A stretch of DNA of 64,000 nucleotides. It comes from Amycolatopsis sp. GM8. Its GTDB lineage: Bacteria; Actinomycetota; Actinomycetes; Mycobacteriales; Pseudonocardiaceae. The notes under the pieces are model-generated. The model was not told the DNA's origin. It made no database searches and saw only the letters and a list, made by a program, of their open reading frames with translations. Shown one piece after another: positions 16,777 to 43,850 of this stretch; positions within the stretch are counted from its first letter, which is position 1, and each line of letters begins with the position of its first letter. Position numbers and translations under genes: made by a program. Location: the NCBI RefSeq assembly GCF_021653975.1, contig NZ_JAJKFK010000002.1, positions 62,001 through 126,000 of the forward strand. The letters run 5' to 3'.

Positions 16777-17801
16777 AGCCGCGCCAACTTCCTGCGGCGG
16801 CACAACAAGACGAACACCGGCGCGCCGACGATCGCGGTCACGATCCCGACTTCGATCTCCTCGACGCCACCGATGACGCGGCCGAGGATGTCCGAGCCGA
16901 TCAGCAGGATCGGCGCGAGCACCATCGAGTACGGCAGCACCCACCGCTGGTCCGGGCCGACGAGCAGCCGCGCCGCGTGCGGTATCGCCAACCCGACGAA
17001 GGTGATCGGCCCGGCGGCCGCGGTCGCCGCGCCGCACAGCAGGGTCACCGCGATCGCGACGAGCACCCGGGTGCGCCCGAGGTGCGCGCCGACCGCTTTG
17101 CCCGCCTCGTCGCCGAGCGCGAGCGCGTTGAGGGCGCGCGCCTGCGAGAGCGCGAGCAGGATGCCGGCCACGATGAACGGCGCGACCTGGCCGACCACGT
17201 CCATCCGGCGCGAGGCGAGCGAACCGACGTCCCAGAACCGGAACTGGTTGAAGGTCAACGGGTTCAGCAGCAGCACACCCACCACGAACGCGAACAGCAC
17301 GGCGGTGATCGCGGCGCCGGCGAGCACGAGCCGTTCCGGAGTGGCGGAACCGCGCCCCGCCGTGCCGAGGATGTAGGCCAGCACCGCGGCGACGGCCGCA
17401 CCGGCCAGCGCGAACCACAGGTAGCCGGTCAGCGAGGTGATCCCGAGGAAGCCGATCGCGACGACGACCGCGGCCGACGCGCCCATGTTCACGCCGAGCA
17501 GGCCGGGGTCGGCGAGCGGGTTGCGGGTGAGCGCCTGCATGAGCGCGCCGCCGAGCCCGAGCCCCGCGCCGACGAGCAGGCCGAGCAGCGTCCGCGGGAT
17601 CCGCAGGTCGTGGATGATCACGGCCTCGCTGGAGCCGTCGCTGTGCCAGAGCAGGTCCCAGGTCGCCGTGAACGGGATGCCCTTGGCGCCGACCCACAGG
17701 CCGGCCAGGCAGGTGAAGACGAGCAGTGCCAGGGCGAGCACCAAGCCCGATGCTCTCGAAACTGAGCGCCGCTCTCGGGCTTGCTCAGTGTTCACCGCCA
17801 T
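16773..17801 (-). CDS. Ferric-siderophore ABC transporter permease (FecC type), pair 1
   Basis: 342 residues, FecCD family with about ten helices. The signature segments LRIPRTLLGLLVGAGLGLGG and ALTRNPLADPGLLGVNMGA are present, with GDEAGKAVGAHLGRTR at the coupling interface to the ATPase. It is the first gene of the permease pair and starts four bases from an iron box (17806-17824), so it is expected to be derepressed by iron starvation. It resembles the FecC-type gene at 45386-46369 closely in layout, giving two parallel uptake channels in one cluster. Confidence 0.92.
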   Translation of the reverse strand: MAVNTEQARERRSVSRASGLVLALALLVFTCLAGLWVGAKGIPFTATWDLLWHSDGSSEAVIIHDLRIPRTLLGLLVGAGLGLGGALMQALTRNPLADPGLLGVNMGASAAVVVAIGFLGITSLTGYLWFALAGAAVAAVLAYILGTAGRGSATPERLVLAGAAITAVLFAFVVGVLLLNPLTFNQFRFWDVGSLASRRMDVVGQVAPFIVAGILLALSQARALNALALGDEAGKAVGAHLGRTRVLVAIAVTLLCGAATAAAGPITFVGLAIPHAARLLVGPDQRWVLPYSMVLAPILLIGSDILGRVIGGVEEIEVGIVTAIVGAPVFVLLCRRRKLARL

Positions 17802-17892: not shown

Positions 17893-17911
17893 TTTGGGTA
17901 GGCAAACCTAA
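17893..17911. promoter_or_regulatory. Iron box, binding-protein side
   Basis: TTTGGGTAGGCAAACCTAA matches 16 of 19 positions of the iron-box consensus. It ends six bases before the ATG of the lipoprotein gene. There is no room for a ribosome-binding site after the box, so the transcript may be leaderless and bound repressor would cover the transcription start. Confidence 0.8.
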
Positions 17912-17916
17912 CTGCC

Positions 17917-18924
17917 ATGACCTCTTCGTTCACGCGCCGGTTCCTGGCGGGCGCACTGGCCTCGGCGTTACTGGTCGTGACCGGGTGCGGCGCCGGGAGT
18001 GACACGGCACAGCAGGCGCCCGGCGCCGACGGTGGGGCGTACCCGGTCACGATCGCGCACAAGTACGGCAGCACCACGATCACGGCCGCACCCAAGCGGG
18101 TCGTCACCGTCGGCCTGACCGAGCAGGATTCGTTGCTCGCACTGGGCGTGGTGCCGGTCGGCACCACCGAGTGGTTCGGCAAGTTCCCCGGCGCGATCGG
18201 CCCGTGGGCGCAGGACGAGCTCGGCACCGCCCCGAAGCCGGAAGTGCTGTCCGACACCGACGGACCGCAGTACGAGAAGATCGCCGCGCTCCGGCCGGAC
18301 CTGATCATCGGCCTGTACTCCGCGCTGACCCAGGAGCAGTACGACACGCTGTCGAAGATCGCGCCGACGGTCGCCCAGCCCAAGGACGTCAGCGACTACG
18401 GCATCTCCTGGCAGGAATCGACGCGCACGATCGGCAAGATCCTCGGGAAATCGGCGGAGGCCGGCAAGCTGGTGTCCGATGTGGAGGCTCGCTTCACCAA
18501 GGCCCGTGCGGACAATCCGGCGTTCGCCGGCGCGACCGCGCTCGTCGTGACCAACTACCAGGGCTATTTCGTGTACAGCAGCGAAGATCCGCGCTCCCGG
18601 GTGCTGACCTCGCTCGGCTTCGTGCTGCCCGGCGATCCGGCCACCAACAACAAGTTCGGCGCCAACATCTCCGCCGAGCACACCGATCTGCTCAACGTCA
18701 AGGCGCTCGTCTGGCTCACGAACGCCGACACCCACAACACGCTCAACGCCGACAAGCTCTACTCGAACCTCGACGTCGCCAAGCAGAAGCGCGAAGTCTT
18801 CGTGCCCGACGACACCGAATACGGCAGCGCGATGTCCTTCGTGAGCGTGCTGAGCCTGCCGTACCTACTGGACCAGCTCGTACCGCAGCTCGCCGCAGCT
18901 GTCGACGGTAATCCCGCCACCTGA
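17917..18924 (+). CDS. Ferric-siderophore-binding lipoprotein 1
   Basis: 335 residues. The n-region MTSSFTRRF, a hydrophobic stretch and the lipobox VVTGC (Cys24) predict a lipoprotein anchored outside the membrane. The rest is a FecB/FhuD-type class III binding protein: YPVTIAHKYGSTTI, PKRVVTVGLTEQDSLLALGV, then IAALRPDLIIGLY and a C-terminal lobe. It captures ferric siderophore for a FecCD permease. The second binding-protein gene follows after 20 bases, giving two probable paralogues in one iron-controlled operon, perhaps for different forms or species of siderophore. Confidence 0.92.
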   Translation: MTSSFTRRFLAGALASALLVVTGCGAGSDTAQQAPGADGGAYPVTIAHKYGSTTITAAPKRVVTVGLTEQDSLLALGVVPVGTTEWFGKFPGAIGPWAQDELGTAPKPEVLSDTDGPQYEKIAALRPDLIIGLYSALTQEQYDTLSKIAPTVAQPKDVSDYGISWQESTRTIGKILGKSAEAGKLVSDVEARFTKARADNPAFAGATALVVTNYQGYFVYSSEDPRSRVLTSLGFVLPGDPATNNKFGANISAEHTDLLNVKALVWLTNADTHNTLNADKLYSNLDVAKQKREVFVPDDTEYGSAMSFVSVLSLPYLLDQLVPQLAAAVDGNPAT

Positions 18925-18944
18925 TGAGGAAAGGCAAGTTCTCC

Positions 18945-19949
18945 ATGTCCCGTAAGAGAGTTCTCGGTGCACTGCTGCTCGCCGGCGCCGTTTCGTTCGG
19001 CCTGGTCGCGTGTGGCGACGTGCAGGACTCGTCGTCCTCGCCCAGCTCGGCCCCCGCCGCGGCCGCCGACGCGGCGGCGTTCCCGGTGACGATCACGCAC
19101 AAGTTCGGCTCGACCACGATCGAGAAAGCGCCTTCACGTGTCGTCGTGATCGGCACGTCGAGCGACGACCTGGACGCGGCGCTCGCACTCGGGGTGACGC
19201 CGGTCGCGTTCTTCGACAAGTCCGGTTCGGACGGGGTGCCCAGCTACCTGCAGGGCAAGCTGGACCCCTCGAAGACCAAGCTCGTCAACGCTGCCAACGG
19301 GGTCAACGCCGAAGAGGTCGGCGCGCTCACCCCCGACCTGATCCTGGCCACCGCCGACTACGGCCTCGATCAGGAGTACGCGAACCTCTCGAAGGTCGCG
19401 CCCACCATCGGTTACGCGACCGAGTGGGGCGCGCAGACCTGGCAAGAACATGTGCAGGTGACGGCGAAGGCGCTCGGCAAGACCGCCGAGGCGCAGAAGA
19501 TCATCGACACCACGCAGGCCGCGATCGACAAGGTGAAGGCGGACTACCCGAAGGCGGCGGGCAAGACGTTCACCGCGTCGGTCGGCAACACCCCGGGCAA
19601 GGTGTTCACGCTCGTGTCGCAAAAGGACTTCGCCGTGCAGCTGGTCCAGTCGCTGGGCCTGAAGCTGAGCCCGGCGATCGCCGGGCTGGGGCAGAACGAC
19701 TCCGGCAGCCCGACGGGTTCGCTGACCCCGGAGCAGTACGACAAGCTGGGCGCGGATCTGGTGATCATCGCCTTCACCTCGCCGGACCTGCAGCAGGCCT
19801 TCGAGAGCAACCAGCTCGTGGCGAGCGTCAAGTCCGGCGACTACCTGGTAGTCGACATGGAGACGATCTCGGCGCTGCGCTACCCGACGGTCTATGACAT
19901 CCCGTGGGTGCTGGACAAGCTGAAGCCGGGCCTGGCGAAGCTTTCCTGA
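18945..19949 (+). CDS. Ferric-siderophore-binding lipoprotein 2
   Basis: 334 residues from ATG 18945, which has AGGAAAGG ten bases upstream. An in-frame ATG at 18924 that overlaps the preceding stop would add seven residues. MSRKRVLGALLLAG and the lipobox LVAC predict a lipoprotein. The FecB-type core reads FPVTITHKFGSTTI, PSRVVVIGTSSDDLDAALAL, then VGALTPDLILATADYG. It diverges clearly from the first binding protein outside the opening motif, so ligand range may differ. It ends at a strong bidirectional terminator. Confidence 0.92.
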   Translation: MSRKRVLGALLLAGAVSFGLVACGDVQDSSSSPSSAPAAAADAAAFPVTITHKFGSTTIEKAPSRVVVIGTSSDDLDAALALGVTPVAFFDKSGSDGVPSYLQGKLDPSKTKLVNAANGVNAEEVGALTPDLILATADYGLDQEYANLSKVAPTIGYATEWGAQTWQEHVQVTAKALGKTAEAQKIIDTTQAAIDKVKADYPKAAGKTFTASVGNTPGKVFTLVSQKDFAVQLVQSLGLKLSPAIAGLGQNDSGSPTGSLTPEQYDKLGADLVIIAFTSPDLQQAFESNQLVASVKSGDYLVVDMETISALRYPTVYDIPWVLDKLKPGLAKLS

Positions 19950-20004: not shown

Positions 20005-23000
20005 TCAGGACAGTTCAGCGTCCACATCGGACTCGTCGAGCGCGTCGACCTCCAGGTAGATCTCGGCGACCTGCGCGAGCCTGCCGGGGGTGGTCTCGTC
20101 GGCGAGCAGGCGGGCGGCCATCGCGCTCACGCTGAGCGTCGCGAACAACGTCCGCACCGAGATCCCGTTGCTGTCCAAGGCTTCCCGCAACCGGCCGACG
20201 ATCATCGTGGCCAGCACGGAGTCACCGCCGAGGGCGAAGAACGGGTCGTCGACGCCGACCCGGCCGACCTCCAGGACGTCCGCCCACACCTTCGCGAGCA
20301 CCTGCTCCAACGGTGTTTTCGGCGCCACGTAGGAGTCCGTCTCGGCCGCCCAATGCGTCGCGACGGCGCGCCGGTCCACCTTTCCGTTGGCGGTCAACGG
20401 CATTTCGCCGAGCACCACCACCCGCGCGGGCACCATGTGCGGCGGCAGCATCGTCCGCGCGAACTCGCGCACCTCGTCCGCCATGACCTCGCCCGCGACC
20501 GCGGCCACGAGCTGGTTGCCCGCCACACCGGCGATCCCGCGCCGGACCGCGGGATGCTCGGCCAGCGCGGCCTCGATCTCGCCCAGCTCGATCCGCACTC
20601 CTCGCACCTTGACCTGGTGATCACGGCGGCCGAGGAACTCGAGCGTCCCGTCGGGCCAGTACCGCGCCATGTCGCCGGTGCGGTACCAGCGGCGCCCTTC
20701 GTACTCCACGAACCGGTCGGCCGTACGCTCCGGATCGGCGCGATAACCATGTGCGACACCATCTCCGCCGATCCACAGCTCGCCGCCGACCCAGTCCGGG
20801 CAGTCGCGGCCACGGGAATCGACCACGCGGCAGGCGACGTTGCGCAGCGGCGTGCCGTAGGGCACCGACCGCCACTGCGTCGGCACGCCGTGCACCTCGC
20901 ACACCGTCGAGTGGATCGCGGTTTCGGTAGTGCCGCCGAGTCCGGCGAACCGGCAGCGCGGCGCGTGTGCGGCGACGCGCCCGGGCAGGTCGGTGCCGAC
21001 CCAGTCGCCGCCGAGCAGCACGGTGCGCAGCCCGGTCAGCTCACCGGGGCGGGCGGAGACCAGCAGCATGTCCAGCAGCGCCGGCACGCAGTTGACGAGG
21101 GTAACCCCTTGCGCCGCAACGAGTTCGGCCCATGCTCGGGCGTCCTTCCGGTCGCCTTCCTCGACGAGGACGACCGCGCCACCGGCACCGAGCAGACCGA
21201 AGATGTCGTACACGGAGAGGTCGAAGTCCAAAGCGGACACTGCGAGGCAGCGGTCCGACTCGCCGATGCCGAAGCGCTCGCTGAGGTCGTCGATCGTGTT
21301 CATCGCCGCCCGGTGCGGGACCTCGACACCCTTGGGCTCGCCGGTGGATCCCGACGTGAACAGCACGTAGGCCACCGACTCCTCGTCCACGCGCACGGGT
21401 TCGGCGAGTGGTTCGGCGTTGCTGTCGGCGCTGGTCAGGACGGTGCGGAGGCCTGCAATGCGGCGGATGCGCTCGGCTCGCGCCGACGGCTGGTCGACGC
21501 CGATCGGCACATACGTGGCACCGGCGGCGAGCACGCCGAGGACCGCCGCGATCTGGTCCGGACCTTTCGGCAGGCTCACGCCGACCGTGTCCCCCGGCGA
21601 GACGTCCAGCGACGCCGCGATCTTGAGCGCGCGCTCGGCGAGTTCGCCGTAGCTGATCGAGCCGGTGGCCCACAGCAAGGCTGGTGCATCAGGGTTTTGC
21701 CGCGCCCGCTCGAAGAACCCGTCGTGCAGGAGCTTCCCGCTCCGCGGACCGGCGGTGTCGTTGACCTTCGCGCGGACTTCGGCTTGCGCCGAGGGCAGCG
21801 CACCGCCCACCGGGCGGTCCCAGGCCGCGTCGTCCTGGCCGAGCCGGGTGATCAGGCTGTGGAAGGCGGCGAACATGTCGTCGATCAGGCCGCCCGGGAA
21901 GGCGTTTTCACGCACGTCCCAGTTGATCAGCAGGCCCCCGTTGACCTCGGTGACCTGCGCGTCCAGCAGCACCTGCGGGCCCTGCGAGATGATCCACACG
22001 GCCTCGCCGAACAAGCGGCGGACATCGGCGTCGAACAGCTCGCCGAGGTTCAGCGCGCTCGTGAACACGACGGGTGCGAGCACCTGCTCGCCCTGGTGCC
22101 GCGACAGGTCCCGCAGCACCTCGACACCCGAATAAGCCGCATGCGCGGCGTCGGCGTGCATCCGGTCCTGCAGCGCCCGCGCGTGGTCCACAAAGGACGC
22201 CTCCGCGGACAGGTCCACGTCCAGCAGCACGGATCCGGTGAAGTCGCCGACGAGCTGGTCGACCTCCGGGTGTGCGCTCTCTCGGTCGAACATCGGCACG
22301 TTGAGCAGGAACCGCGGCTGCGCGCTCCACGACGCGAGCGACTCCGCGAACGCGGTCGCGACGACCATCGCCGGGGTCAATCCGTGCTCGTGCGCCCGCG
22401 AGGAAAGGTTCTTGCGGTCCTCCGGCGCGAGCCAGTGGTGCCGCCGGGTCACGCGCGTCGCGTCGCCGCGCTCGCCCTCCGGCACGAGCGGCAGGTCGGG
22501 CGCCGCAGGCAGTTCCGGAATCCTTTGCTGCCACCATTCGCGGGCCCGCTCGCGGTCGGCCTGCCGCGCCGGCTCGCGTTCGGCCAGGTAGCGCGGGTAG
22601 CTGTAACCGATCGGCTCGAACTCGGGGTTCTCGTAGAACCGCGCGAGGTCGGCGAGCAGCACGCGGTAGCTGAGCGCGTCGGCGGCGAGCATGTCGACGT
22701 CGACGTGCAGCCGCGTCCGACCAGCGGACAGGCGGCTGAGCTGGATCGCGAACACCTCGCCCTCGGCGACGTTGAGCCGCTCGTGCGAGGATCGGTCCCG
22801 GATCGCTTCCAGCTCCGTCTCGTCCTCGATGTCATGCACGACGAGCAACGGCTGGGCGCGCTCGGACAAGATCTGCTGACGGCCGTCGTCGGTGAACTTC
22901 GCGCGCAGCATGCCATGTCGCTCGACCAGCGCCCGCACGGCTTGTTCGAGCTTCGCCGGGTCGACATCCTGGCCGTCGAACTCGACGTAGAGGTGTGCGG

Positions 23001-23355
23001 CGACCGAACCGAGCGTGGTCTCCTCGTCACGGCCGATCCAATACGCGTGCTGCATCAGCGCCAGCGGGAACGGCTCGCTCTCGTCGATGTCCATCGTGAC
23101 AACGGGTTCCGGCGCGACCCCGGCCGCGTCGGCGAGCACCTCGCGCCAGCCGGCGAGCGTCGGGCTCTTCGCCAGCTGCGCGAAGCCGACCTTGATCCCG
23201 CGGCGGCGCCACTTGTTCGCGACCTGCATGAGCTGAATGGAGTCCAGGCCCCACTCGATCAGGCTGTCGCTTTCGGACAGTCCGGCCGCTTCCGGGCCCA
23301 GTAGGTCGGTGACCTCCCGCAGGAGCTCCCCCGCCGTCGGCTGCTGACTCACCAC
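20005..23355 (-). CDS. NRPS-D: ArCP-Cy-A-PCP, loading and heterocyclisation module
   Basis: 1,116 residues. An aryl-carrier domain (about 1-80; GLDSIQLM, Ser39) is followed by a cyclisation domain (about 95-530). The latter carries the Cy signature D-x4-D-x2-S as DMLAADALS (221-229), PVVFTS and [12 protein letters not shown]. An adenylation domain (about 545-1020; [22 protein letters not shown]) and a PCP (about 1025-1100; LGGDSVLA) complete it. The salicyl-AMP ligase should load the ArCP; Cy then condenses and cyclises Cys, Ser or Thr to a hydroxyphenyl-thiazoline or oxazoline. My hand-read code is D-L-Y-N-L-G-L-I-H-K, nearest to cysteine codes but with two differences. There is no epimerase, so the product passes to an LCL condensation domain. 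It starts at GTG 23355 or 23352 (GTGA overlap with NRPS-C). Confidence 0.93.
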
Positions 23356-26300
23356 GTGCCCAGCTCCTCTTCGAACTCGTCGAACTCGTCCTGACTGATA
23401 TCCACAAGGGACAGATCGGGTTTGGCTTCCGCCAGCGCTTCCCCGAGTTTCTGTACCAGAGCCGCCACGTCGTGCGGGCTGATCAGGCTGATGCGCAGCT
23501 CACCGTCGATGGCGGCCGCGTTCACCTCCAGCGCCCAGTCCGGGCGCCTGCCGGGCTTCGGCGGCACGCGCAGCATCGGCGCCTCCGGCGCGACCGACCA
23601 GGCCGAGCCGTCGCTCGCGTCGACCCGGCCGAGGTAGTTGAGCACGATGGTCGGCTCCGGCAGGCCGAGCGGGCGCAACAGTCCGTAGCCGAGGCCGTGG
23701 TCGGGCAGGTCTTCGACACGTCCGTTGGCACGCAAGGGAAAGATCGTGGTGAACCAGCCGACCGTCGCGGACAGGTCGACGCCGGGCGCGATCTGCTCCT
23801 CGCGGCCGTGGCCTTCGACGGCGATCACGGCGTTGTCCACGCCGAGGGCCTGGCCGAGCGCGCGGATCAGCGCCTGCTGGACATCGCCGGTGGGCAGCGG
23901 TGCGGTGAACTCGGTGACCTGCGGCTCGGCGGCGATCAGGGGCAGCACCTGGTCGGCGCCGTCGAGGATGCCGCGCCACAGGTCCCACTCGCCGCTGCGG
24001 TCCTGCTGTCCGAGCAGCTCGCTCCAGCGACGGAACGAGGTGCCGGCGCGGATCAGCTCGTGCCCCTGCCAGGCTTCGGCGAGGTCGTCGAGCAGAATCC
24101 GCCAGGACACGCCGTCGACGACGAGGTGGTCGGCGACGATCAGCACCCGGTCGTCGAACCAGACCACCTGCAGCATCCGGTCGTCGGTGAGCCGGCCGCG
24201 CGCGGCGAGCAGTTCGTCGTCCAGGGAGCCGGTGGCCCTGGTCAGGATTTCCTTGGCAGGGAAGGATTCCTCTGGGATGACAAGCGTCTCGCCGTCCCAG
24301 CGGGCGCGCAGGACGTCGTGCCGGTCGAGGATCGCCTGCACGGTGCGCAGGAGTTCCTGTTCCGCCAGGTTTTCCGGTGCCGCGAGGAGCATCGCCTGGT
24401 AGAGCCCGCGGTAACGCATGATCGGCGTCGGCTCGACGCGCCCGTGCGGGGTGCCGGTGTGCACGACGAAGCCACCCGCGGCGGCGAGCCCGGCCGGTGT
24501 GCGGTGTTCGAAGATCTGCCGCGGGGTGAGCGTGATGCCGGCCTTGCGGGCGCGGCTGACGAGCTGCACGGAGATGATGCTGTCGCCGCCGAGTTCGAAG
24601 AAGCTGTCGTGGATACCGACCTCGGGCAAGCGCAGGGTCTCCGCGAAAAGCTTGCACAGCAGACGTTCCCGCTCGTCACGTGGCTTGTCGTCGCCGGCGA
24701 GGGCGGCGAAGTCCGGCGCTGGAAGCGCTTTCCGGTCGAGCTTGCCGCTCGGGCTCAGTGGCAGCTCGGCGAGTGACACGACCGCGGCGGGAACCATGTG
24801 CTCGGGCAGAGTCTTCGCCAGCTCTTGCTTGACGTCGCTTGCGTCGCCGACGACGTACGCGACCAGCCGGCCGTCCCGCACCACGACGGCCGCCTGCTGC
24901 TCGATCGCCGCCTCGATCTCGCCGAGCTCGACCCGGAAGCCGCGGATCTTGACCTGGTCGTCGGTCCGGCCGAGGTAGTGCAGCACCCCGTCGACCTGCC
25001 GCACGAGGTCGCCGGTGCGGTACAAGCGGCCGTTCTCGTGCGCGACGAACCGGGACGCCGTGAGCCCGGGCCGGTTGAGGTAGCCGCGCGCGAGCTGGAC
25101 GCCGCCGAGATACAGCTCCCCCGGCACTCCAGACGGAACCGGCCGGAGAAGGCGGTCGAGGACATGCACTTCGGTGTTCCAGACGGGCGTGCCGATCGCG
25201 ACTTCATCGGTGACGGTCCAATGTGTGACGTCGACGGCAGCTTCGGTGGGGCCGTAGAGGTTGTGCATCCCAGGCTTGGCGATGTCTGCTGGAAGCGCTT
25301 CCCCGCTGGTGATCACCCGCTTGGGCAACGGCTTCTCGCCGTAGGCCCTGAGCATCGATGGAACAAAGTGGACGGTCGTCACCTGGTCCATGATCGACGC
25401 CAGGTAGTCGGGATCCTTGTGACCGCCCGGCTTCGCCACCACCAACTTCGCGCCCGTGATGAGGGGCCAGAAGAATTCCCACACCGACACATCGAAACTC
25501 GACGGCGTCTTCTGCAACACGGCGTCTTCGGGCGTGAGGTGATACTCGTGCTGCATCCACAACAGGCGGTTCACGATCGCCTGATGCGAGACCACGACAC
25601 CCTTCGGGCGTCCGGTCGAACCCGATGTGTAGATCACATAAGCCGCGTTATCCGGGCCCGGCTTTGTCGTCGCAGCGGCCCCATCAAGCGCCGCAGGAAG
25701 AACTACCGTCGGCTGAGCATCGGAGATCATGAACTCCAACCGCTCCTCCGGATACGACGGATCCAGCGGCAGGTACGCACCACCAGCCTTCAGCACACCG
25801 AGGAGCGACACGATCAAATCCAGCGAACGGTCCTGCCGAATCCCCACGATCCGATCCGGACCCACACCCGCCGCGGCCAGACCCGAGGCCAACTCGGCCG
25901 CTCGTGCATCCAACTCCGCGTAGGTCAGCGATTCGCCCTCGAACACCACCGCCGTGGCCTCCGGCGTCCGCGCCACCTGCGCCTCGAACAGCTCGGGCAG
26001 GGTCGTCTCCGGCACCTCGACCGACGGGAACGACTCGGCCTCGCCGAGTGCCAACTGCGACAATGGCCGGTCCGGGTCGCCGACCAGCAGTTCGACCACC
26101 GCCACGAACCGGCGCACAATATCGTCCACTGTGGACCGATCGAACAGGTCCTTGCTGTAGACGAGCCAGCCGTCGATCCCGCTCGTGCCCTCGAAGAGGT
26201 GGAACGACAGGTCCATCCGCGCGGCGTAGAACTCGACGTGTTCCTCGCGCATCGACGCCGCCCCGAACGGCACGGCAGCGCGCGGCGCCTGCTGGTAGGC

Positions 26301-29300
26301 CAGCATCACCTGGAACAGCGGGTGCCTGCCCATCACGCGTGCCGGGTTCGCTGCCTCGACGAGCCGCTCGAACGGCAGGTCCTGGTGGCCGAACGCGCCG
26401 AGATCGGTCTTCCGGACGCGCTCGATGAGCTGCCGGAAGCTCGGGTTCCCGTTGACATCCGTACGCAGGACCAGGGTGTTCACGAAGAACCCGACGAGAT
26501 CGTCCAGCGCTTCGTCGATCCGGCCGGCGATCGGGGTGCCGAGCGGGATGTCGGTGCCGGCGCCCAGGTAGTCGAGCAGGGCGGCGAGCGCGGCCTGCAC
26601 GGTCATGAACACCGTCGAGCCGGTTTCCCTTGCCAGACCGGCGAGCTTGGCCTGCGTCCCGGCCGAGAGCCGGAAGCGCACGGCGTCGCCCTCGAAGCTG
26701 GGGACCGCGGGACGCGGCCGGTCCGCGGGCAACCGCAGCTCGTCCGGCAAGTCCGCGAGCTGGGTACGCCAGTAGGCGAGCTGAGTCGAGGCTGTGCTTT
26801 CCGAATGCGTGCTTTCCGGATCAGCCGCGTTGCCGAGCAGGTCACGCTGCCAGAGCGCGTAGTCGGCGTACTGCACAGGCAACGGCTGCCAGTCCGGCGC
26901 GCGGCCGCGCAGGCGCGCGGTGTAGGCGGTCGTCACGTCGGCCAGCAGCCGTTCACCGGACCAGCCGTCGCTCGCGATGTGATGTGTCAGCAGCGAAAGC
27001 ACCTGGCCGTCGAGCAACCGCGCCTCGAACGGCGGTTCGCGATCGAGTTCGAACGCACGCCGCGCGGCCTCCTCCGCGGCGCCACCGACCTCCAACGCCG
27101 GCGCCCAGTCGAGGATTTTCTGGTACGGCCGCCCCTCGAACTCCGGATAGATCGTGCGCAGCACCTCGTGCCGTCCGACCACATCGGACAGTGCCGCGCG
27201 CAGCGCTTCGATGTCGAGCGGGCCGTCGAGGCGCGCGGCGAGCGGGACGTTGTAGGTCGGGCTCGGGCCTTCCAGTCGGTAGAGGAACCACAACCGTTGC
27301 TGCGCGAACGAAAGCGGGATGCGTCGCGGACGCGGCATCGGCGTCAACGCGGCGCGCTTCCGGTCACCGTCGTCGAGCGCGGCGGCCAGGCGCGCGACCG
27401 TGGGGGCGTCGAATATCGTGCCGATCGCCAGCTCGATCCCGAGTTCGGCGCGTACCCGGCCGACGAGCCTGGTGGCCAGCAACGAATGTCCGCCGAGCGC
27501 GAAGAAGTCGTCGTGCACGCCGACGCGGTCGAGTTCGAGCAGATCGGCGAACAGCCGGGCGAGGGCGCGTTCGCGTTCGGTGCTCGGTTCCGCCTCGCTC
27601 ACGGTGACGGTCGGCTCTGGAAGCGCTTTCCGGTCGAGCTTGCCGCTCGGGGTGAGCGGCACGGCGTCGATCTCGACGATGACCGACGGCACCATGTGCT
27701 CGGGCAGTGACCTCGCCAACTGCCGCTTGGCGTCGCTCGCATCGCCGACGACATAGGCGATCAGGCGCTCGCCCCGCGCGATGACGGCCGCCGCTTCGAC
27801 ACCGGACAGGGCGGTCAGCGCCGCTTCGATCTCGCCGAGCTCGACGCGGAAGCCACGGATCTTGACCTGGTCGTCCGCGCGGCCCAGGTAGTCGAGTGCG
27901 CCGTCTTCGCGCCAGCGCACGAGGTCACCGGTGCGGTACAAGCGGCCGTTCTCGTGCGCGACGAACCGCGAGGCCGTGAGCCCGGGCCGGTTGAGATAGC
28001 CGCGGGCGAGCTGCACACCGCCGAGATACAGCTCTCCCGGCACGCCAGGGGGCACGGGCCGCAGGAACCGGTCGAGGACGTGGAGCTGCGTGTTCCACAC
28101 CGGCCGCCCGATCAGCACCTCGTCGGTCACGGTCCAGTACGTGACGTCGACAGCGGCTTCGGTGGGGCCGTAAAGGTTGTGCATCCCGGGTTTGGCGATG
28201 TCGGCTGGAAGCGCTTCCCCGCTGGTGATCACCCGCTTCGGCAACGGCCTCTCGCCATACGCCCGCAGCATCGACGGTACGAAGTGGACAGTCGTGACCT
28301 GCGGCATCACCGACGCCAGATAATCCGGATCCTTGTGCCCGCCCGGCTTCGCCACCACCAGTTTCGCGCCCGTGATGAGAGGCCAGAAAAACTCCCACAC
28401 CGACACATCGAAACTCGACGGCGTCTTCTGCAGAACGGCATCTTCGGGCGTGAGCTGATACTCATGCTGCATCCACAACAGCCGGTTCACAATCGCCCGA
28501 TGCGAGACCACCACACCCTTCGGCCGCCCCGTCGAGCCCGACGTGTAGATCACATAGGCGGCGTTATCCGGGCCTGGCTTTGTCGTCGGAGCGGCTCCGT
28601 CGAGCGCGGCAGGCAGAACCGCCACCGGCTCGGCGTCGGAGATCATGAACTCCAACCGCTCCTCCGGATACGACGGATCCAGCGGCAAATACGCACCACC
28701 AGCCTTGAGCACCGCCAACAGCGACACGATCAAATCCAGCGAACGGTCCTGCCGAATCCCCACGATCCGATCCGGGCCCACACCCGCCGCGGCCAGCGAC
28801 GACGCCAGCGAAGCAGCCCGCGCATCCAACTCCGCATACGTCAACGACTCACCCTCGAACACCACCGCCGTCGCATCCGGCGTCCGCGCCACCTGCGCCC
28901 CGAACAACTCCGGCAGAGTCGTCGATGGCACCTCGGCCGCGGTGTCGTTCGGCAGCCGCGCGGCGTGGTAATCCAGCCGCCCAACGCCCTGACCTGGCGC
29001 GTCGAGAGCGGCGGTGAGCAGGGACTCCAGGTGCTCCAGGAACCGGTCGATCGTCCGGGCGAGGAACAGGTCGGTGGAGTACGTCGCCTCGATCCGCAGC
29101 TGCCCGTCGGTCAGAAACGCTTCCAGCGCAAGGTCGAACTGCGTGGTGTCGTTGTGCACCGTCTCCCAGGTCGCGGTCACGCCGGGCAGGTCGAGCCCCT
29201 GCAAACCCTGCGTCAGGAACAGCAGCATGACATCGAACAGCACCGAGCGCCCGGCCGTCCGGGGCGGCCGCAGCCGCTCGACGAGCAGGTCGAACGGCAG

Positions 29301-30380
29301 GTCCTGATGCGCATAACTGTCGGTGCACACGCGGTGCACACGCGCGACCAGCTCGGCGAACGACGGCTCGTCGGCCAGATCCGCCCGCAGCACCAGCGTG
29401 TTGCCGAAGTTACCGATGAGCCGCTCGACCTCGCCGGCGTCGCGATTCATTGACGCCGAGCCGATCGGCACATCGGTCACACCCGTGTAGCGGTGCAGCA
29501 GCGCGGCGTAGGCGGCGAGCACAACCATGAACGGCGTGACCCCACGGGCCTGCGCGAACGCCGTCGCCCGCTCGGTCAGCGCCGCGTCGAACGTCCTGAA
29601 GCGACGGTCGCCGCGGCTCGAACGGGCGGCCGGGCGGGGAAAATCGGTCGGCAGCGGCAGGTTCTCGGGCATCGGGTCCAGCGCGCCGCGCCAGTACTCG
29701 AGGTCACCGGCGAGCCGTTCGTCGGTAAGCGTTTTCCGTTGCCACAGCGCGAAGTCCGCGTATTGCACCGTGAGCGGTTCCAGGCCCGACGGCCGTCCCG
29801 CGGTGTCTTCGCGGTAAAGCGCGGACAGGTCGTGGGACAGCGCGTTGAAGGTGAAGCCGTCCCACGCGATGTGGTGCACCGTCATCACGAGCACCCAGTC
29901 GTCGTCGCCTTGCCGGAGCAAGCGCAACCGCAGGGAGTGCTCGCGGGACAGGTCGAAGGCGTGCGCGGACTCCTGCCGGGAAAGCGCTTCCACCGCACGG
30001 GCGCGCTCGTGTTCCGGCAGGCCGCGCAGGTCGGTCTCGGCCATGGTGACCACCGCATATGCGTCGATCACCTGCCGCGGTTCACCGTCCGCGCCGGGCA
30101 CGTAGCGCGTGCGCAGGATCTCGTGCCGCTCCACCAGCCGCTGGAAGGACCGGTGCAGCGCGGCGGTGTCGAGGTCGCCGCGCAGGCTGATCGCAAGGCA
30201 CACGTTGTAGGCGGCGCTGTCCGGTTCGAGCTGCTGCAGGAACCACATTCGGGACTGTGCGTAGGAAAGCGGCAGGTCGTCCTCGCGGTCCCGACGCGGG
30301 ATCTGGTTGGTGCTCGCGAGTCCGGCCTGCGCCAGCCGGCGGCGCAACAGCTCGCGCTTGCGGGCCGCGAGGTCACTCAT
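23349..30380 (-). CDS. NRPS-C: C-A(Ser)-PCP-C-A(Ser)-PCP-E
   Basis: 2,343 residues. An LCL-type condensation domain (HHIAWDG, about 170) is followed by A1 (about 487-930), a PCP (GGHSLLA, about 964), a second LCL domain (HHIASDG, about 1134), A2 (about 1457-1900), a PCP (GGDSIIS, about 1934) and an epimerisation domain (about 1960-2330). Both A codes read D-V-W-H-I-S-L-V-D-K, the serine code. The E domain has [10 protein letters not shown], with the first His of the pair replaced by Asp, and [10 protein letters not shown]. The opening LCL domain fits acceptance of the cyclised salicyl unit from NRPS-D. The predicted output is L-Ser then D-Ser. ATG 30380 overlaps the NRPS-B stop by 8 bases and has AAGGAG upstream. 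Confidence 0.93.
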
Positions 30381-33300
30381 CTGAGATCTCCTTCAGCGCG
30401 GCGAACCATTCGCGCGACAGTTCGTGGATGCGTTCTTCCGGGAAGATCCCGCCGGCCCACTGCCAGTCCGCTTCCAGGACCGAGCCATTGACCAGCGCAT
30501 TGAGCACAAGGCAGTACGGCGCGGGCATTTCGTCGTCCACGCCACCGCCCATCGCGCCGACCTCCGGCGCACCGGACCACGGTTCGTCGTCGGACTCGCC
30601 GACGGTCAGCCGGCCGAGGTAGTTGAATTCGACCTGCGGCTCTGGCAGGCGCGCCAGTTCCGGCGCGGTGTCCGGGTTGAGGTACCGGAGCAGGCCGTGG
30701 CCGATTCCCTTGTCCGGCACGGCAAGTTGCTGTCCGACCTGACGGACGTCGGTGGGATCGATGCGGACGGGATGGACGCTGGTGAACCAGCCGACGGTGC
30801 CGGACAGGTCGGCGCCGGGCACGATCTGCTCCTCCCGGCCGTGCCCCTCCAGTGCGATCAGCACCGAACCACCCTCGCCTCGCCACCGGCCGACGGCGCG
30901 TGCGAACGCGGTCAGCAGCACGTCGTTGATCGTGGCGCCGAGCCGCTCCGGCACGGTGGTCAGCAGCTTTTCGGTGAGTGCGGCGTCGAGGACCGTGCGG
31001 GTGGCCCGCATCGTCGCCCGCGTGTCGAGCGCCGGGTCGAGCCTGCGCTCGCCGAGCACCGGATCCGGGCCGGACAGGATGTCGCGCCACAGGTCCAGCT
31101 CGGCCGACTTCGCTTGCGCCACCTCGGGAAGCGCTTTCGCCCACTCCCGGAACGACGTGCCGACCGGCGGGAGCTCCCGGCCCTGCCACAGATCCGCCAG
31201 CTCAGGGACCAGCACGCCCCACGACGCGCCGTCGACCACGAGGTGATGCAACAGGATCAGGAGACGTCCGTCGCTTTCGCCCTCGAACCACACGAACCGC
31301 GCCATTTCGCCGTTCGCCGGGGACAGCTCACGCAGCTCCTCCTCCATCACGTCAGGGAGTTGTACCGCGACGTCGGTGAGTTCGATCCGGCGGATGGAAG
31401 CGCTTACCGCACCGCGTGGCCGCACCGTGAAGGCACCATCGAAAGTGGACCGCAGCACGTCATGCCGGTCGAGCAGGGTCTGGATCAGCTCCGTGAGCCG
31501 ATCCAACGTCAACCCGGCCGGGGTGCACAGCAGCCGGGCCTGGCTGAGCCGGTCGTACGGTTTGTTGTGGGTGAGCCAGGTCAGCATGGGTGTCAGCGGC
31601 ACCGCGCCGATACCGGCCTCGGGGTCTGCGGAGCGCTTCGCAGTGCCGACGACCTGAGCGAGTTCGGCCACCGTCCGGCGCTCGAACACGTCACGCGGGC
31701 TGAAGCCCAGGCCTGCCGCGCGGGCCTTGCTGACCAGGCGCATCGAGACGATGCTGTCGCCGCCGAGCGCGAAGAAGCTGTCATCGGCGCCGACCTCGCG
31801 CACGCCGAGCACCTCGGTGAACAGCTCCGCCAGCCGCCGCTCGGTATCAGTGCGCGGCGCACGGGTGGTGCCGCGGTAGTCGGGTGCTGGAAGCGCTTTC
31901 AGATCGAGCTTGTCGTTGCGGGTCAACGGGAACCTGTCGACGGCGACGATCGCGGCGGGGACCATGTAGTCCGGCAGGCTCGCGGCCACCCGCTCTCGCA
32001 ACCCTTCCACGCCACCGTTGCGCACCACGACATAGGCGACGAGACGGCGAACGCCGGGGGTGTCCTCGCGCGGTACCACGACGGCCCGCTCGACCCGGTC
32101 GTCCCGCGACAGCACGGCTTCGATCTCGCCGGGTTCGATGCGGAACCCGCGGATCTTCACCTGGTCGTCGACGCGACCGAGGCATTCGATGCGGCCATCC
32201 GCCGTCCAGCGCGCGATGTCACCCGTGCGGTACAGGCGCTGGCCATCAGGGGCCGCGACAAAACGTGACGCCGTGGTGCCCGGGCGGCCGAGGTAGCCGC
32301 GGGCGAGCCCTTCGCCCGCGAGATACAGCTCGCCTTCGACGCCGATCGGGCACAGTCGCAGCCGCCGGTCGAGGATGTAGGCGCGAGCGTTGCCGACCGG
32401 CGAGCCGATGGACGGCGACTCGCTGTCCGCGAAGTCGGCGGCCACGGAGTCCACAGTGCACTCCGTCGGCCCGTACAAGTTGTGCACGGCAAGGTCTTCC
32501 TGGTCGCGCAGCATCCGCCACAGCTCGCCAGGCACGGCTTCACCGCCGACGCCGAGCACCTTCAGCGAGCCCCGCCACGGTTCGTTCGCGATCTGCGCGA
32601 GCAGGGTCGGCGACAACTCGACGAACTCGATCTCGTGCTGGGCAAGGAAATCGCGCAGGAGGTCGGCGTCGCGCCGGACAGCCGGCGGCACGAGGTGCAG
32701 CTCGTGCCCGGCGAACATCCACAGCATCGGCTGCCACGACGCGTCGAACGCCATGGGCCACGCGTGTGCGACCCGCAGCGGCCGCCCGGCCCGGCGCCAC
32801 GCCGGGTCGAACAGCGCCGCGCGATGGCTGACCAGCAGGTTCGTGATCGACCGGTGCGTGACCACGACGGCCTTCGGGGTGCCGGTCGAGCCCGAGGTGT
32901 AGATGACGTAGGCCGGGTTCCCGGGTCGCGCGGATTGCGGCAGGTTTTCGCCGTGCCCCAGCGGAATCTCGGTGAGGACGATGACCGGTTTCGAGTCGGC
33001 GAGCATCGTGTCGAGCCGTTCGGCGGGCCAGTCAGGGTCGAGTGGCAGGTACGCGGCACCGGCCTTGAACACCCCGAGCAGGGCGATGATCATTTCCGCA
33101 CCGGCCGGCATCTTCAGCGCGACGATCTGCTCCGGCCCGGCGCCCTGCTCGACGAGCGCGCGAGCGACGTGGTTGGCGCGGCTGTTGACTTCGGCGAAGG
33201 TCAACTGCCGGTCGTCGGCGATCAATGCGATCGCGTTGGGCGTGCGGCGGGTTTGCTCCTCGAAGACCTCGGACATCGTCGTCGGCGTGACCTCGAGCCG

Positions 33301-34547
33301 GGGGCCGGTGCCGAATTCGATGAGCTGCCGATACTCGGATTCCGGCAGTAGATCGAAGGGCCTGTCCTCGGCGAAATCGGCGGCCGCGCGGGTGAAGTAC
33401 CGGGCGATCGCCTCGATCCGCTCGCGATCGAAGACGTCCGGCCGGTACTCGAAGGTGACGGAAAGCGCTTCCTCGGCCGCGACCGCGAGGGTCAGCGGAT
33501 AGTGCGTCGCGTCTTCGACCTCGACCTGGCTGATCCTGATGCCCGCGCGGTTTTCGCTCTCCCCCACCGCGTCCGAGTCGATCGGGTAGTTCTCGAACAC
33601 GACGAGCGTGTCGAACAGGTCACCGGTGCCGCGCTGGATCTCGGTGAGCCCGAGGTACTGGTGGTCCATCAGCCGCGACTGCCCGGCCTGCAACTCGCCG
33701 AGTGGCGCGTCGGCGCGCACCCGCACCGGAATCGTGTTGATGAACAGGCCCACCATCGAGTCCACACCGGACAGATCCGCCGGACGGCCCGACACTGTGG
33801 CACCGAAGACCAAGTCGTCCCGGCCGGTCAGCCGGGCCAGCACCTGGCCCCACAGCCCCTGCACGACGGTGTTGACCGTCAGGCCTTCCGCGCGCGCACG
33901 GGCATAGAGCCGCTCGCCCGGCAGGTCGATCCGGATCTTGCCGGGACGCGTCGGGACGCGTGAAGCGGTGGGCGCCAGCAGGGTCGGCTCGGCTCCTGCA
34001 AGCGCTTTCTGCCAAGCAGCCGTCGAAGCCTCAGTGTCGCGTGTGGACAACCACGTGAGGTAGTCCCGGTACGGCCTGGGCCGGGCCGGTTCGGTGCCGC
34101 CGTAGAGCGCGAGCAGCTCGCTGACCAGCAGCGGAAGCGACCAGCCGTCGAGCAGGATGTGATGGTTCGTCAGCACCAGCCGGTAGTCGGTCTCGGCCAG
34201 CTTCACCAGCGTCATCCGCAGCAGGGGCGGCTCGGCGAGATCGAACCTCGCCTCCCGGTCTCGCCGCCGGGCCCCGTCGAGATCGCCCTCGACCTCGGCC
34301 CACGGCAGCTCGACCTCGTCGAGGATCACCTGCACCGGATCGTCGACGTCCTCGTACACGAACGCGGCCCGCAGGTTCGCGTGCCGGGCCAGCAATGCCC
34401 GCGCCGCCTCGTGTAAGCGCTTACCGTCGACCTCGCCTTCGAGGCCGAGCACGAACTGCACGGTGTAGACGTCGTCCGCGCTCCGGTCGAACAGGGCGTG
34501 GAACAGCATGCCCTGCTGCAGCGGCGACAGCGGCAGGATGTCCTCGA

Positions 34548-34551
<4 letters not shown>
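30373..34551 (-). CDS. NRPS-B: C-A-PCP-E, probable last module
   Basis: 1,392 residues from GTG 34551, which overlaps the NRPS-A stop as GTGA. The condensation domain opens with [17 protein letters not shown] and has NHHILLDG, the type found after epimerisation domains (DCL). The A domain (about 424-880) has FDASWQPM and gives the code D-A-Q-E-G-G-L-V-D-K by hand. I cannot assign that code; the acidic residue at position 278 would suit an amine side chain such as hydroxyornithine. The PCP (GGDSIVS, about 929) is followed by an E domain ([20 protein letters not shown]). Ending an assembly line with E and no thioesterase is unusual, so release probably needs a separate enzyme. Confidence 0.92.
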
Positions 34552-41480
<6,929 letters not shown>

Positions 41481-41482
41481 GG

Positions 41483-41698
41483 TCAGGACTCGGTTTCCAT
41501 CGCGCGCACGAGGCTGCGTGGCCGCATGTCCGTCCAGTTCGCCTCGATGTGGTCGAGGCACGCCTGCCGGCTGTCCTCGCCGAACACAATCGTCCAGCCC
41601 GAAGGCACCTCGGCGAACGTGGGCCACAGCGAGTACTGGCCCTCGTCGTTGACCAGCGCGTAGAAGCGGCCGCTGTCGTCGTCGAAGGGGTTGGTCAC
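41483..41698 (-). CDS. MbtH-like NRPS accessory protein
   Basis: 71 residues, typical length. The conserved pattern is complete: [20 protein letters not shown], the tryptophans in SLWP and SGWTIVFG, and a C-terminal WTDMRPRSL. MbtH proteins bind adenylation domains and are needed for folding or activity of many of them. It is the first gene of the NRPS operon. GTG 41698 has GGGAGG six bases upstream, and NRPS-A starts two bases after its stop. Confidence 0.96.
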
Positions 41699-41748: not shown

Positions 41749-42552
41749 CTAAGTGTGTCTACCCGCGAAAAAGGTGACGAGCGCGGCGTTGACCTCATCC
41801 GGTCGCTCCAGGTAGCCGTAATGCCCGCAGCCTTCGAGCTCGAGATACCGCGCGGACGGGATCGCGTCGGCGACTTCCCTTGCCAGGTAAGCGGGCAACC
41901 GCAGGTCGTCGGCGAATCCGATGACCAGGCACGGAACCTTGATCGCGCGGTAGGCCGGCAGCCGGTTCCCGGTGATGTCCAGGCGCAGCTGCGCGCGCAG
42001 GCCGGGCGTCCAGATGGTGGGCGACAGCGTGAACAGGTCGAGCCAGTCGCGCATCGCCGCGTCATCGTTCAGCGTGCGGGGTGAGAGATTCTGTACCGCC
42101 CGCACCACCGCCTCGTACCGCGCCGGCAGGTCCACGCCACTGTCGCGCAGCTCGCGTTCGGCCTCCCCCATCGCCTCGCGCAGCACGTCCGGGCGACCGC
42201 GCGTCGCCATCATCACCGCCTGCGTGACCAGGTCCGGGCGGGCCAGCGCCAGCTCGGTGACCACCTGCGCGCCCATCGACGTGCCGGCGAGCCGGCACGG
42301 GCCCAGGTCGAGATGCTCGATCAGCTCGGCGGTGTCGGCGACCAGATCGTCGATCGTGAAGTCCGTGTCCTCGCCGGAAAATCCGCGGTTGTCGAACGTG
42401 ATCACGCGGTAGCCGGCGTCGACGAGCGCGGGCACCTGGTGCAGATGCCACACCCGCCCGGTCGCGGCGGTGCCCATCACCAGCACCACGGGTTCGCCGG
42501 AACCCGTGTCCTGATAGGAGATCTTCACGCCGTTGACGGCTGCGAGGGCCAT
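41749..42552 (-). CDS. Alpha/beta hydrolase, candidate releasing or siderophore esterase enzyme
   Basis: 267 residues from ATG 42552 (MALAAVNGVKISYQDTG). Alpha/beta-hydrolase fold with the nucleophile elbow GTSMGAQ, an oxyanion region LVMGTAAT, a late FADDLRL acid segment and the catalytic His in GCGHYGYLERP near the C-terminus. It overlaps the MFS exporter gene by 28 bases and lies directly upstream of the NRPS operon. No TE domain exists in the NRPSs, so it may release the peptide. Alternatively it may hydrolyse the ferric siderophore, as CchJ-like and IroE-like enzymes do. The sequence does not decide between these. Confidence 0.85.
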   Translation of the reverse strand: MALAAVNGVKISYQDTGSGEPVVLVMGTAATGRVWHLHQVPALVDAGYRVITFDNRGFSGEDTDFTIDDLVADTAELIEHLDLGPCRLAGTSMGAQVVTELALARPDLVTQAVMMATRGRPDVLREAMGEAERELRDSGVDLPARYEAVVRAVQNLSPRTLNDDAAMRDWLDLFTLSPTIWTPGLRAQLRLDITGNRLPAYRAIKVPCLVIGFADDLRLPAYLAREVADAIPSARYLELEGCGHYGYLERPDEVNAALVTFFAGRHT

Positions 42553-43781
42553 TGCTCTCCTTGCAGGCTCGCGCGGCGCAGCCGGGGCATCGTCACGGCG
42601 ACAAGGCACACGCCGAACACGCAGATCAGCCCGCCGCCGACGATCGCGCCGGCGCTGCCGAACAGGCGCGCGGCCAGCCCGGCTTCCGCGTTGCCGACCG
42701 CGGGCCCGGTCGTCGCCTGCGCGAGCCACAGGCTCGACACGCGGCCCTGCAACTCGTCCGGCGTGTAGTGCTGGAGCAGCGCGCGGCGCAGGATTTCCGA
42801 CGTGGTGTCACCGATTCCCGCGATCGCCAGGCACATCAGCCCGAGCCACAGCTGTCCGGACAGGCCGAACCCGATGATCGCGAGACCCCACACCAGCACC
42901 GAGGCGATCAGCGCGCGGCCGCTGTGCCGGGCCCGGCCGATCCAGCCGCTGGCCAGCGCACCGAAGAAGGCCCCGACCGCGGGCGCCGTGTAGAGCAGGC
43001 CCACGGTGGACGGGCCGCCGTGGAAAACCTGTTCGGCCAGCTGCGGGAACAGCGCGTACGGCATCGCGAACACCATGGCCCACACGTCGATCAGCAGCAG
43101 CCCGGCGACGACCTGGTTGTGGCGGACGAACCGGAACCCCTCGGCGAGCGATCGCAGCGGATGTTGTGGCTTGTGCTCGGAACGCAACGGTGGAATGGAC
43201 CACATCAGGACGACGCCGAGGATGTAGCCGCCCGCGTCGATCGCGAAGCAGGTCGCGACGCCCGGCCCGGCCGCGATGAACCCGGCGACCGTGGGGCCGA
43301 TCATCGCACCGAACTGGCTGGTCACGGTGAACAGCGCGCCCGCGGCGGCCAGCTGCTTGGCCTCGACCAGCGACGGCACCACCGCCATCAGCGCCGACCC
43401 GCCGAGCCCGTTGATGCTCCCGGCGAGCACGGCCGCGAGGTAGACGACAGCCAGCGCCGGATGCGGCATCGCGGCGTTGATCGCGAGCCCGGCGAGGATG
43501 ACCGCGACCACCGAACGGGTGCCGAGGATCAGCCGCCGCCGGTCGAGCCGGTCGGCGAGCACGCCACCGGAGAGCAACCCCACGAGCAGCGCGAACCCGA
43601 ACACGAGACTGACCAGGCCGACCTGGACGGATGAGCCGGTGAGCTGGTAGACGTGCAGGTTGATGCCGACGTTCGTGAGCGCCGTGGTCAGCACCGTGAG
43701 GGTCTGCGCGGCGAAGACGCGGCGGTACCCCGGACTGGTCCGCAACGGTGTGGTGTCGATGACCAGTTCGCCAAGCCGCAC
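42525..43781 (-). CDS. MFS exporter, EntS-like, probable siderophore efflux
   Basis: 418 residues with about twelve membrane helices. The loop 2-3 motif is GVLADRLDRRRL. Overall layout matches the EntS/multidrug MFS group used for enterobactin export. GTG 43781 has GGGAGGAAGG upstream. It is the first gene of an operon with the hydrolase and is divergent from the salicyl-AMP ligase, sharing the iron box at 43804-43822. It probably exports the finished apo-siderophore. Confidence 0.88.
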   Translation of the reverse strand: MRLGELVIDTTPLRTSPGYRRVFAAQTLTVLTTALTNVGINLHVYQLTGSSVQVGLVSLVFGFALLVGLLSGGVLADRLDRRRLILGTRSVVAVILAGLAINAAMPHPALAVVYLAAVLAGSINGLGGSALMAVVPSLVEAKQLAAAGALFTVTSQFGAMIGPTVAGFIAAGPGVATCFAIDAGGYILGVVLMWSIPPLRSEHKPQHPLRSLAEGFRFVRHNQVVAGLLLIDVWAMVFAMPYALFPQLAEQVFHGGPSTVGLLYTAPAVGAFFGALASGWIGRARHSGRALIASVLVWGLAIIGFGLSGQLWLGLMCLAIAGIGDTTSEILRRALLQHYTPDELQGRVSSLWLAQATTGPAVGNAEAGLAARLFGSAGAIVGGGLICVFGVCLVAVTMPRLRRASLQGEQWPSQPSTA

Positions 43782-43803: not shown

Positions 43804-43822
43804 ATCGGCTAGCCTAACCTAA
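43804..43822. promoter_or_regulatory. Iron box between exporter and salicyl-AMP ligase genes
   Basis: ATCGGCTAGCCTAACCTAA matches 15 of 19 consensus positions, with a perfect right half CTAACCTAA. It lies in the 69-base divergent promoter, so one operator can serve both directions. Confidence 0.82.
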
Positions 43823-43850
43823 GTTCGTCGCCTGACCCAAGGAGTTGCTG

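Follow-up and report, generated by a model that had tools for sequence, protein, structure and literature searches.

An amychelin-type siderophore cluster in Amycolatopsis sp. GM8 with a probable non-colinear order of its synthetases

The window analysed here is a stretch of 64,000 nucleotides from Amycolatopsis sp. GM8 (assembly GCF_021653975.1, contig NZ_JAJKFK010000002.1, positions 62,001 to 126,000 of the forward strand), whose genome measures 8.16 Mb and is split over 22 contigs. It contains a siderophore gene cluster, at the heart of which are four non-ribosomal peptide synthetases (NRPS-A to NRPS-D) and an MbtH-like protein. The span 20005-41698 is correct for NRPS-D through MbtH. The assembly-line genes lie on the minus strand and are read 5′ to 3′ as MbtH, NRPS-A, NRPS-B, NRPS-C and NRPS-D, as an earlier sequence-only reading of this stretch had stated, and all four NRPS frames are uninterrupted from start to stop. 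The closest named matches to the starter gene, NRPS-D, come from A. pithecellobii (90%), A. sacchari (88%) and A. bartoniae (87%). In the list below the domains are adenylation (A), peptidyl carrier (PCP), aryl carrier (ArCP), heterocyclization (Cy), epimerization (E) and thioesterase (TE), and condensation (C) domains for an L-configured (LCL) or D-configured (DCL) donor; fhOrn is formyl-hydroxyornithine.

41483..41698, minus strand: MbtH-like protein (PF03621)
34548..41480, minus strand: NRPS-A, DCL-A(Ser-type)-PCP-LCL-A(fhOrn-type)-PCP-E; start approximate (~41480)
34551..34628, minus strand: docking-like C-terminal tail of NRPS-A, 26 residues
34548..34551, minus strand: GTGA overlap of the NRPS-A stop and the likely NRPS-B start
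30373..34551, minus strand: NRPS-B, last module, DCL-A(DAQEGGLVD)-PCP-E, with neither tail nor TE
30376..31596, minus strand: E domain closing NRPS-B
23349..30380, minus strand: NRPS-C, LCL-A(Ser-type)-PCP-LCL-A(Ser-type)-PCP-E, from domains, structures, codes and tree
23352..23411, minus strand: acidic docking-like C-terminal tail of NRPS-C
20005..23355, minus strand: NRPS-D, starter, ArCP-Cy-A-PCP without E; A code DLYNLGLIH, Cy motif DMLAADALS, tree

The order of C, A, PCP and E domains was taken from Pfam matches and motif positions, and the subtypes of the C domains from solved structures and a tree. Whole-protein NCBIfam scans were too general for domain typing, and the E segments were therefore scanned singly. 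Against TIGR01720 (cut-off 74.2 bits) the C-terminal domains of NRPS-B, NRPS-A and NRPS-C score 86.6, 54.4 and 38.1 bits. The terminal domain of NRPS-B carries the HHxxxDG motif, and among solved structures it comes closest to E domains, those of PvdL, bacitracin synthase 3, TycA and GrsA. The first C domains of NRPS-A and NRPS-B find their best structural matches in McyB, in the post-E domains inside PvdL and bacitracin synthase 3, and in the domains at the N-terminus of TycB and of SrfA-C. For the first C domain of NRPS-C the ranking is Txo1 and Txo2, then a module named ‘amino acid adenylation domain protein’, PCP-C didomains and TycC. TycB and SrfA-C begin with D-donor domains, and TycC has domains of the L-donor kind.

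A maximum-likelihood tree of 83 domains, nine of them window domains and 74 drawn from fetched loci, with labels set by an automatic position rule without hand curation, agrees with these assignments. The 83 were taken from 205; 47 N-terminal domains were omitted, as were 27 at a C-terminus, 10 without a placement and 38 of the 46 other Cy domains. The first C domains of NRPS-A and NRPS-B fall into a clade (support 100/100) that includes all eight post-E domains, three of which belong to fused A-B proteins of the same family as the window, together with six domains labelled LCL by position. Both C domains of NRPS-C and the second C domain of NRPS-A lie in another clade (100/99), which holds 28 LCL-labelled rows and lacks all eight post-E domains. 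The three window E domains join all 12 position-labelled E domains (100/100), and the Cy domain of NRPS-D is placed among Cy domains, with which 12 position-labelled LCL rows also group; treekit warned that long E and Cy branches meet in this tree. The first domains of NRPS-A and NRPS-B thus lie outside the LCL clade and that of NRPS-C outside the DCL clade; the opposite placements, which the sequence-only reading had named as refuting it, did not occur. That reading had NRPS-D begin with ArCP-Cy and end without E, which Pfam, motifs and tree bear out as ArCP-Cy-A-PCP; it had NRPS-C begin with LCL and NRPS-A with DCL, each ending in E, in agreement with the structures, the TIGR01720 matches and the tree. 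For NRPS-B it was right about the DCL start, as structures and tree show, but overlooked the terminal E domain. No TE domain was found among the domains of the four window NRPS. A dual E/C character of the first C domains of NRPS-A and NRPS-B was considered and set aside, since the additional N-terminal His motif was not found in either; this is a weak argument, because the motif as formulated had no match in any of the 17 rows to which it was applied and so lacked a positive control. The carrier motifs are LGGHS ahead of LCL domains and LGGDS ahead of E domains, in agreement with the domain types and with the rule for these two motifs given in PMC10212144 (here and below, papers are cited for the parts of their text that were available).

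The E domain of NRPS-B bears directly on the order in which the proteins act. Applied to all 24 possible orders, the donor rule requires that D precede C, to be followed by A and B in either order, so that both D-C-A-B and D-C-B-A remain. Because NRPS-B ends in E, the rule is insufficient alone; the argument that donor configuration by itself proves the order was rejected, and the earlier claim that only D-C-A-B satisfies all donor configurations fails.

What then distinguishes the two orders? A starter gene of at least 78% identity is present in 19 of the 297 genomes searched, the window's own included, and clusters of this kind are also present in other Amycolatopsis and in Lentzea and Saccharothrix. 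The full A-B-C-D set is seen in 16 of the 19, the other three being partly covered: G257 is truncated where its contig stops, and what was read of G287 and G130 excludes the start of A. Seventeen relatives either share the gene order of the window or have A and B fused. Unlike the window, six Amycolatopsis relatives have NRPS-A and NRPS-B in a single open frame, A first, as inspection of all six junctions showed (genomes G146, G064, G113, G162 (A. tucumanensis), G175 (A. deserti) and G130 (A. thermalba)); the five fused orthologues examined are 70-72% identical to the window NRPS-B in their best local match. A quick tree built from the ArCP-Cy portion of NRPS-D places the six fused clusters together (SH-aLRT, a likelihood-ratio branch test, 93), so a single fusion event is likely.

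The protein ends covary with the fusion. In 12 of the 12 split clusters that show its end, NRPS-A closes with the tail LTPSDVPL...QLDK..AKW.KK, slightly different in G287, and this tail is absent from all six A-B fusions. NRPS-B is without a tail in 18 clusters out of 18. The acidic tail of NRPS-C, EFE(E/V)ELGTW, is kept in 18/18 clusters, split and fused alike, and that of a nineteenth (G257) ends EEFEEELDTW. The simplest reading of these sequences is that the tail of A would dock to B and that of C to A, with B as the last protein. In the order D-C-B-A the chain would be Sal-Oxz-Ser-D-Ser-D-X-Ser-D-fhOrn (Sal, salicyl; Oxz, oxazoline) and NRPS-A would come last. The donor configurations permit this, given that NRPS-B begins with DCL and ends with E, yet we regard it as highly improbable: A precedes B within one protein in the six relatives, the docking-like tails make B look terminal, and the GTGA overlap ties gene A to gene B. 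The fusions, the loss of the A tail within them and the tail-less B together favour D-C-A-B, which is most likely the working order and differs from the transcription order A-B-C-D. The order proposed by the sequence-only reading is thereby well supported, on grounds other than those it gave. Three clusters of the Crossiella type have a related C-type gene and, after it on the same strand, a DCL-first gene, an arrangement that fits C acting before a DCL-first partner, though the cluster is a different one.

Crossiella and its kin (loci L152-L157 and L032) carry this related cluster with the starter gene on the opposite strand, next to the C-type gene and the DCL-first gene, the first A domain of the latter being split by an insertion of ~400 residues. 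It is probably responsible for a different mixed-ligand siderophore.

On both sides of the synthetase genes the window holds genes and sites that would serve the supply of precursors, release, transport and control:

15757..16690, minus strand: fourth FecCD permease, boundaries approximate (PF01032 at residues 337-640 of ORF 15757-17697)
16773..17801, minus strand: third FecCD permease (PF01032)
17893..17911, plus strand: second iron-box-like palindrome, upstream of the genes for the two binding proteins
17917..18924, plus strand: siderophore-binding protein 1 (PF01497)
18924..19949, plus strand: siderophore-binding protein 2 (PF01497)
41749..42552, minus strand: alpha/beta-hydrolase, proposed stand-alone release enzyme (AmcB role), GTSMG nucleophile elbow
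42525..43781, minus strand: EntS-type exporter of the major facilitator superfamily (PRK10489, 378 bits, cut-off 324)
43804..43822, plus strand: iron-box-like palindrome of the divergent promoter, 3 mismatches, 0 expected
43845..45389, plus strand: salicylate (aryl)-AMP ligase (best match TIGR02275, 653.5 bits, below the cut-off of 723.6)
45386..46369, plus strand: FecCD-type siderophore permease 1
46360..47340, plus strand: FecCD-type siderophore permease 2, start approximate
47348..48607, minus strand: salicylate synthase (TIGR03494, 494.9 bits, cut-off 325.2)
48598..49878, minus strand: amino-acid N-monooxygenase, taken as L-ornithine N5-monooxygenase (PF13434, Lys_Orn_oxgnase, 364.7 bits)
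49986..50927, plus strand: formyltransferase, proposed to formylate N5-hydroxyornithine (PF00551 and PF02911)

Judged by family matches, an ornithine hydroxylase and a formyltransferase for fhOrn are probably both present; in NCBIfam the only sizeable match of the N-monooxygenase is to the histamine N-monooxygenase model, at 191 against a cut-off of 700. No ATPase for the uptake system was found among the open reading frames scanned, which were part of those in the window. The palindromes at 17893 and 43804 are the two within three mismatches of what we take to be the iron-box consensus, and none arose in 100 shuffles. A match at the divergent promoter is present in 16 of the 16 clusters scanned (G287, G257 and G130 standing outside this set), with three mismatches in 15 and four in one. 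Further out lie a GAF-GGDEF-EAL protein (8505-11165), an S-adenosyl methyltransferase-like protein (12343-13194, PF04672) and an open frame at 61770-63998 with weak A-domain and carrier matches, reaching nearly to the window end.

The nine-residue codes of the A domains, taken from an alignment, are strongly conserved. DVWHISLVD is the code of both A domains of NRPS-C (18/18 each) and of the first A domain of NRPS-A (12/16), and DINYWGGIG that of the second A domain of NRPS-A in all 17 true rows, an eighteenth row so labelled (G257) being a mis-assigned module of a truncated NRPS-C that was excluded. NRPS-B has DAQEGGLVD in 18/18 clusters and NRPS-D DLYNLGLIH in 14/14. We take DVWHISLVD to specify Ser, DINYWGGIG formyl-hydroxyornithine, and DLYNLGLIH to be of the heterocyclization type for Cys, Ser or Thr. 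A literature search for the strings DINYWGGIG(K), DAQEGGLVDK and DLYNLGLIHK found no occurrence in the papers accessible to it.

The last residue requires closer discussion. Piperazate was considered and rejected, because the whole genome gave no match to FMN_bind_2 (PF04299), presumably the piperazate synthase family. The same order of proteins could end in Gln, Arg, Orn or another residue in place of hydroxyornithine, giving a congener with a linear C-terminus and weaker iron binding; DAQEGGLVD resembles Gln-type codes, and D-arg is given for the NRPS-B module of a Lentzea cluster in PMC9120177. Against this, the code of NRPS-B is identical in 18/18 clusters, and the amychelins, like the gobichelins, end in cyclic hydroxyornithine (PMC13238742). 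The cahuitamycin protein CahC, which likewise ends in E and has a Gln-like A domain, put N-OH-Orn into analogue 5, and its authors doubted Gln as its substrate (PMC4757757); this is a precedent, by analogy, for an NRPS-B that takes hydroxyornithine. In kasichelin an E-ending last module leads to a D-ornithine-derived lactam (PMC12305651). Finally, ring closure of the terminal hydroxyornithine of amychelin is predicted to be the work of AmcB, a hydrolase that stands alone (PMC12305651, PMC10683483), and a hydrolase of this release type is present in 15/15 amychelin-type relatives examined and missing from two of the Crossiella type (17 genomes, G287, G257 and G130 not among them). We therefore consider another C-terminal residue unlikely; by analogy with the known products, N5-hydroxyornithine is the most likely residue of NRPS-B.

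We infer the substrates, the docking partners, the lactam release and the product, and on this basis the assembly may run as follows. Salicylate synthase would make salicylate, which the ligase would adenylate and load onto the ArCP of NRPS-D, and the Cy domain of this protein would form an oxazoline from Ser (or Thr). NRPS-C would then add L-Ser and D-Ser, and NRPS-A L-Ser followed by D-N5-formyl-N5-hydroxyornithine. NRPS-B would add and epimerize the last residue, most likely N5-hydroxyornithine. Because there is no thioesterase domain, release is assigned to the stand-alone alpha/beta-hydrolase, which would set the peptide free as a cyclic hydroxyornithine lactam. The siderophore so predicted is salicyl-oxazoline-Ser-D-Ser-Ser-D-(formyl-hydroxy-Orn)-D-cyclo(hydroxy-Orn), for which, if every step of this scheme holds, C30H42N8O14 with a calculated [M+H]+ of 739.2893 is expected. 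Taken as a whole, an amychelin-type cluster working in the order D-C-A-B and yielding a hydroxyornithine lactam released by the hydrolase is an interpretation in which we have high confidence.

Could the cluster instead be silent or broken, with no product? The C3 motifs depart from HHxxxDG in two places, with HHxxxDE in the second C domain of NRPS-A (37422-38666) and DHxxxDG in the E domain of NRPS-C (23352-24458). Every relative that shows the domain in question shares these departures (18/18 and 19/19 clusters respectively), which are thus older than this strain; none of the four genes is interrupted between start and stop, and the iron-box-like sites are present with the promoter site conserved. 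A dead cluster accordingly seems very unlikely.

A number of observations nevertheless weigh against the interpretation as a whole. The E domains of NRPS-A and NRPS-C lie under the TIGR01720 cut-off, and to the two motif departures just named can be added relatives in which the Gly of the E motif is lost singly, as HHLAVDS in NRPS-A (G230, G245 and G176) and HHLVVDA in NRPS-B (G223); one regular-expression match to the E motif in G140 was spurious. Six domains preceded by a PCP, and hence labelled LCL, fall in the D-donor clade, so that agreement between position and clade is imperfect. The fusions that argue for A before B form one clade and probably reflect one event. The code DAQEGGLVD, which is Gln-like, does not of itself specify hydroxyornithine, and the D-arg reported for the Lentzea module points elsewhere (PMC9120177). 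The product is predicted here from the genes, and orthology to the amychelin cluster is judged from the module list in PMC9120177, the available part of which comes without the gene order of strain AA4.

Variation among the relatives predicts further congeners. The code of module 4, the first A domain of NRPS-A, is altered in 4 of 16 clusters to DAWQVGVVQ, DAWQIGVVQ or DIWHIVLLQ (genomes G230, G176, G245 and G140; loci L132-L135 and L148-L151), and the remaining modules that were read keep their usual codes. Three of these hosts belong to the genus of Lentzea pudingi and L. terrae and one to another genus. N-monooxygenase and formyltransferase were not found in the fetched stretches of G230, G245, G140, G176 and G232, nor was the formyltransferase in that of G223; a monooxygenase (best match 67-73% identical) is encoded elsewhere in the genomes of G230, G245, G140, G176, G232 and G287 (6/6).

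The additions made here are modest, namely the covariation of fusion and tail and the altered module-4 code. One lineage of the family may have exchanged an A-to-B docking pair for a fusion, with loss of the tail, and others may have altered the specificity of module 4 alone. The cluster is a clean worked case of non-colinear reading, in which the donor rule reduces 24 orders to two and the fusions and the tail select one, and the fused and split orthologues would be well suited as a pair on which to test the engineering of docking domains in siderophore synthetases. A literature search on docking and fusion in non-colinear siderophore NRPS gave nothing on this siderophore family, judged by title. 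More speculatively, there is some chance that the window product is an undescribed amychelin congener, for example with another C-terminal residue, and that the family represents a natural experiment in NRPS docking.

How does the cluster compare with known siderophore systems? Gobichelin (gob) is a mixed-ligand siderophore with the cyclic hydroxyornithine end predicted for the window (PMC13238742). Cahuitamycin (cah, Streptomyces gandocaensis) shares more. Its cluster is likewise non-colinear, its Cy starter is predicted for Cys and loads Ser, CahB is a Ser/D-fhOrn protein, the E-ending CahC has the Gln-like A domain discussed above, and release occurs in trans by an alpha/beta-hydrolase (PMC4757757). 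In contrast to the window it has piperazate and beta-Ala with fewer Ser, and the window genome lacks a PF04299 match. Kasichelin (kas) has a Cy starter, two E-ending modules and a terminal D-hydroxyornithine lactam, but only three modules, a beta-aminoisobutyrate or beta-alanine linker and no AmcB homologue according to the accessible text of PMC12305651. Kineochelin (kin, Actinokineospora) resembles the window in its salicyl oxazoline, fhOrn, two Ser, cyclic hydroxyornithine and a last module without TE, and differs in its Thr-oxazoline, Gly, D-Ser-D-Ser, L-hydroxyornithine and release by an ArCP-TE didomain protein (PMC13238742).

The closest system is amychelin (amc, Amycolatopsis/Streptomyces sp. 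AA4, MIBiG BGC0000300), for which A. methanolica is also named as a producer (PMC10296737, PMC8150894). It has the same six modules and salicyl starter (PMC9120177, PMC13238742), a last module without TE and a stand-alone release hydrolase (PMC12305651, PMC10683483). PMC9120177 gives identical module strings for the AA4 cluster and for Lentzea clusters, the Lentzea polymer string being written in the order A, B, C, D. The window has the features by which we recognise the amychelin type, namely salicylate synthase and ligase, an ArCP-Cy-A-PCP starter with a Ser/Cys-type code, and six modules, and its module set agrees with that of the amychelin cluster as described in PMC9120177. The amychelin-like product class proposed by the sequence-only reading is thus well supported. 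Compared by description, the two show no difference at the level of the published text available, and the window cluster is a known siderophore system of the amychelin type rather than a new kind.

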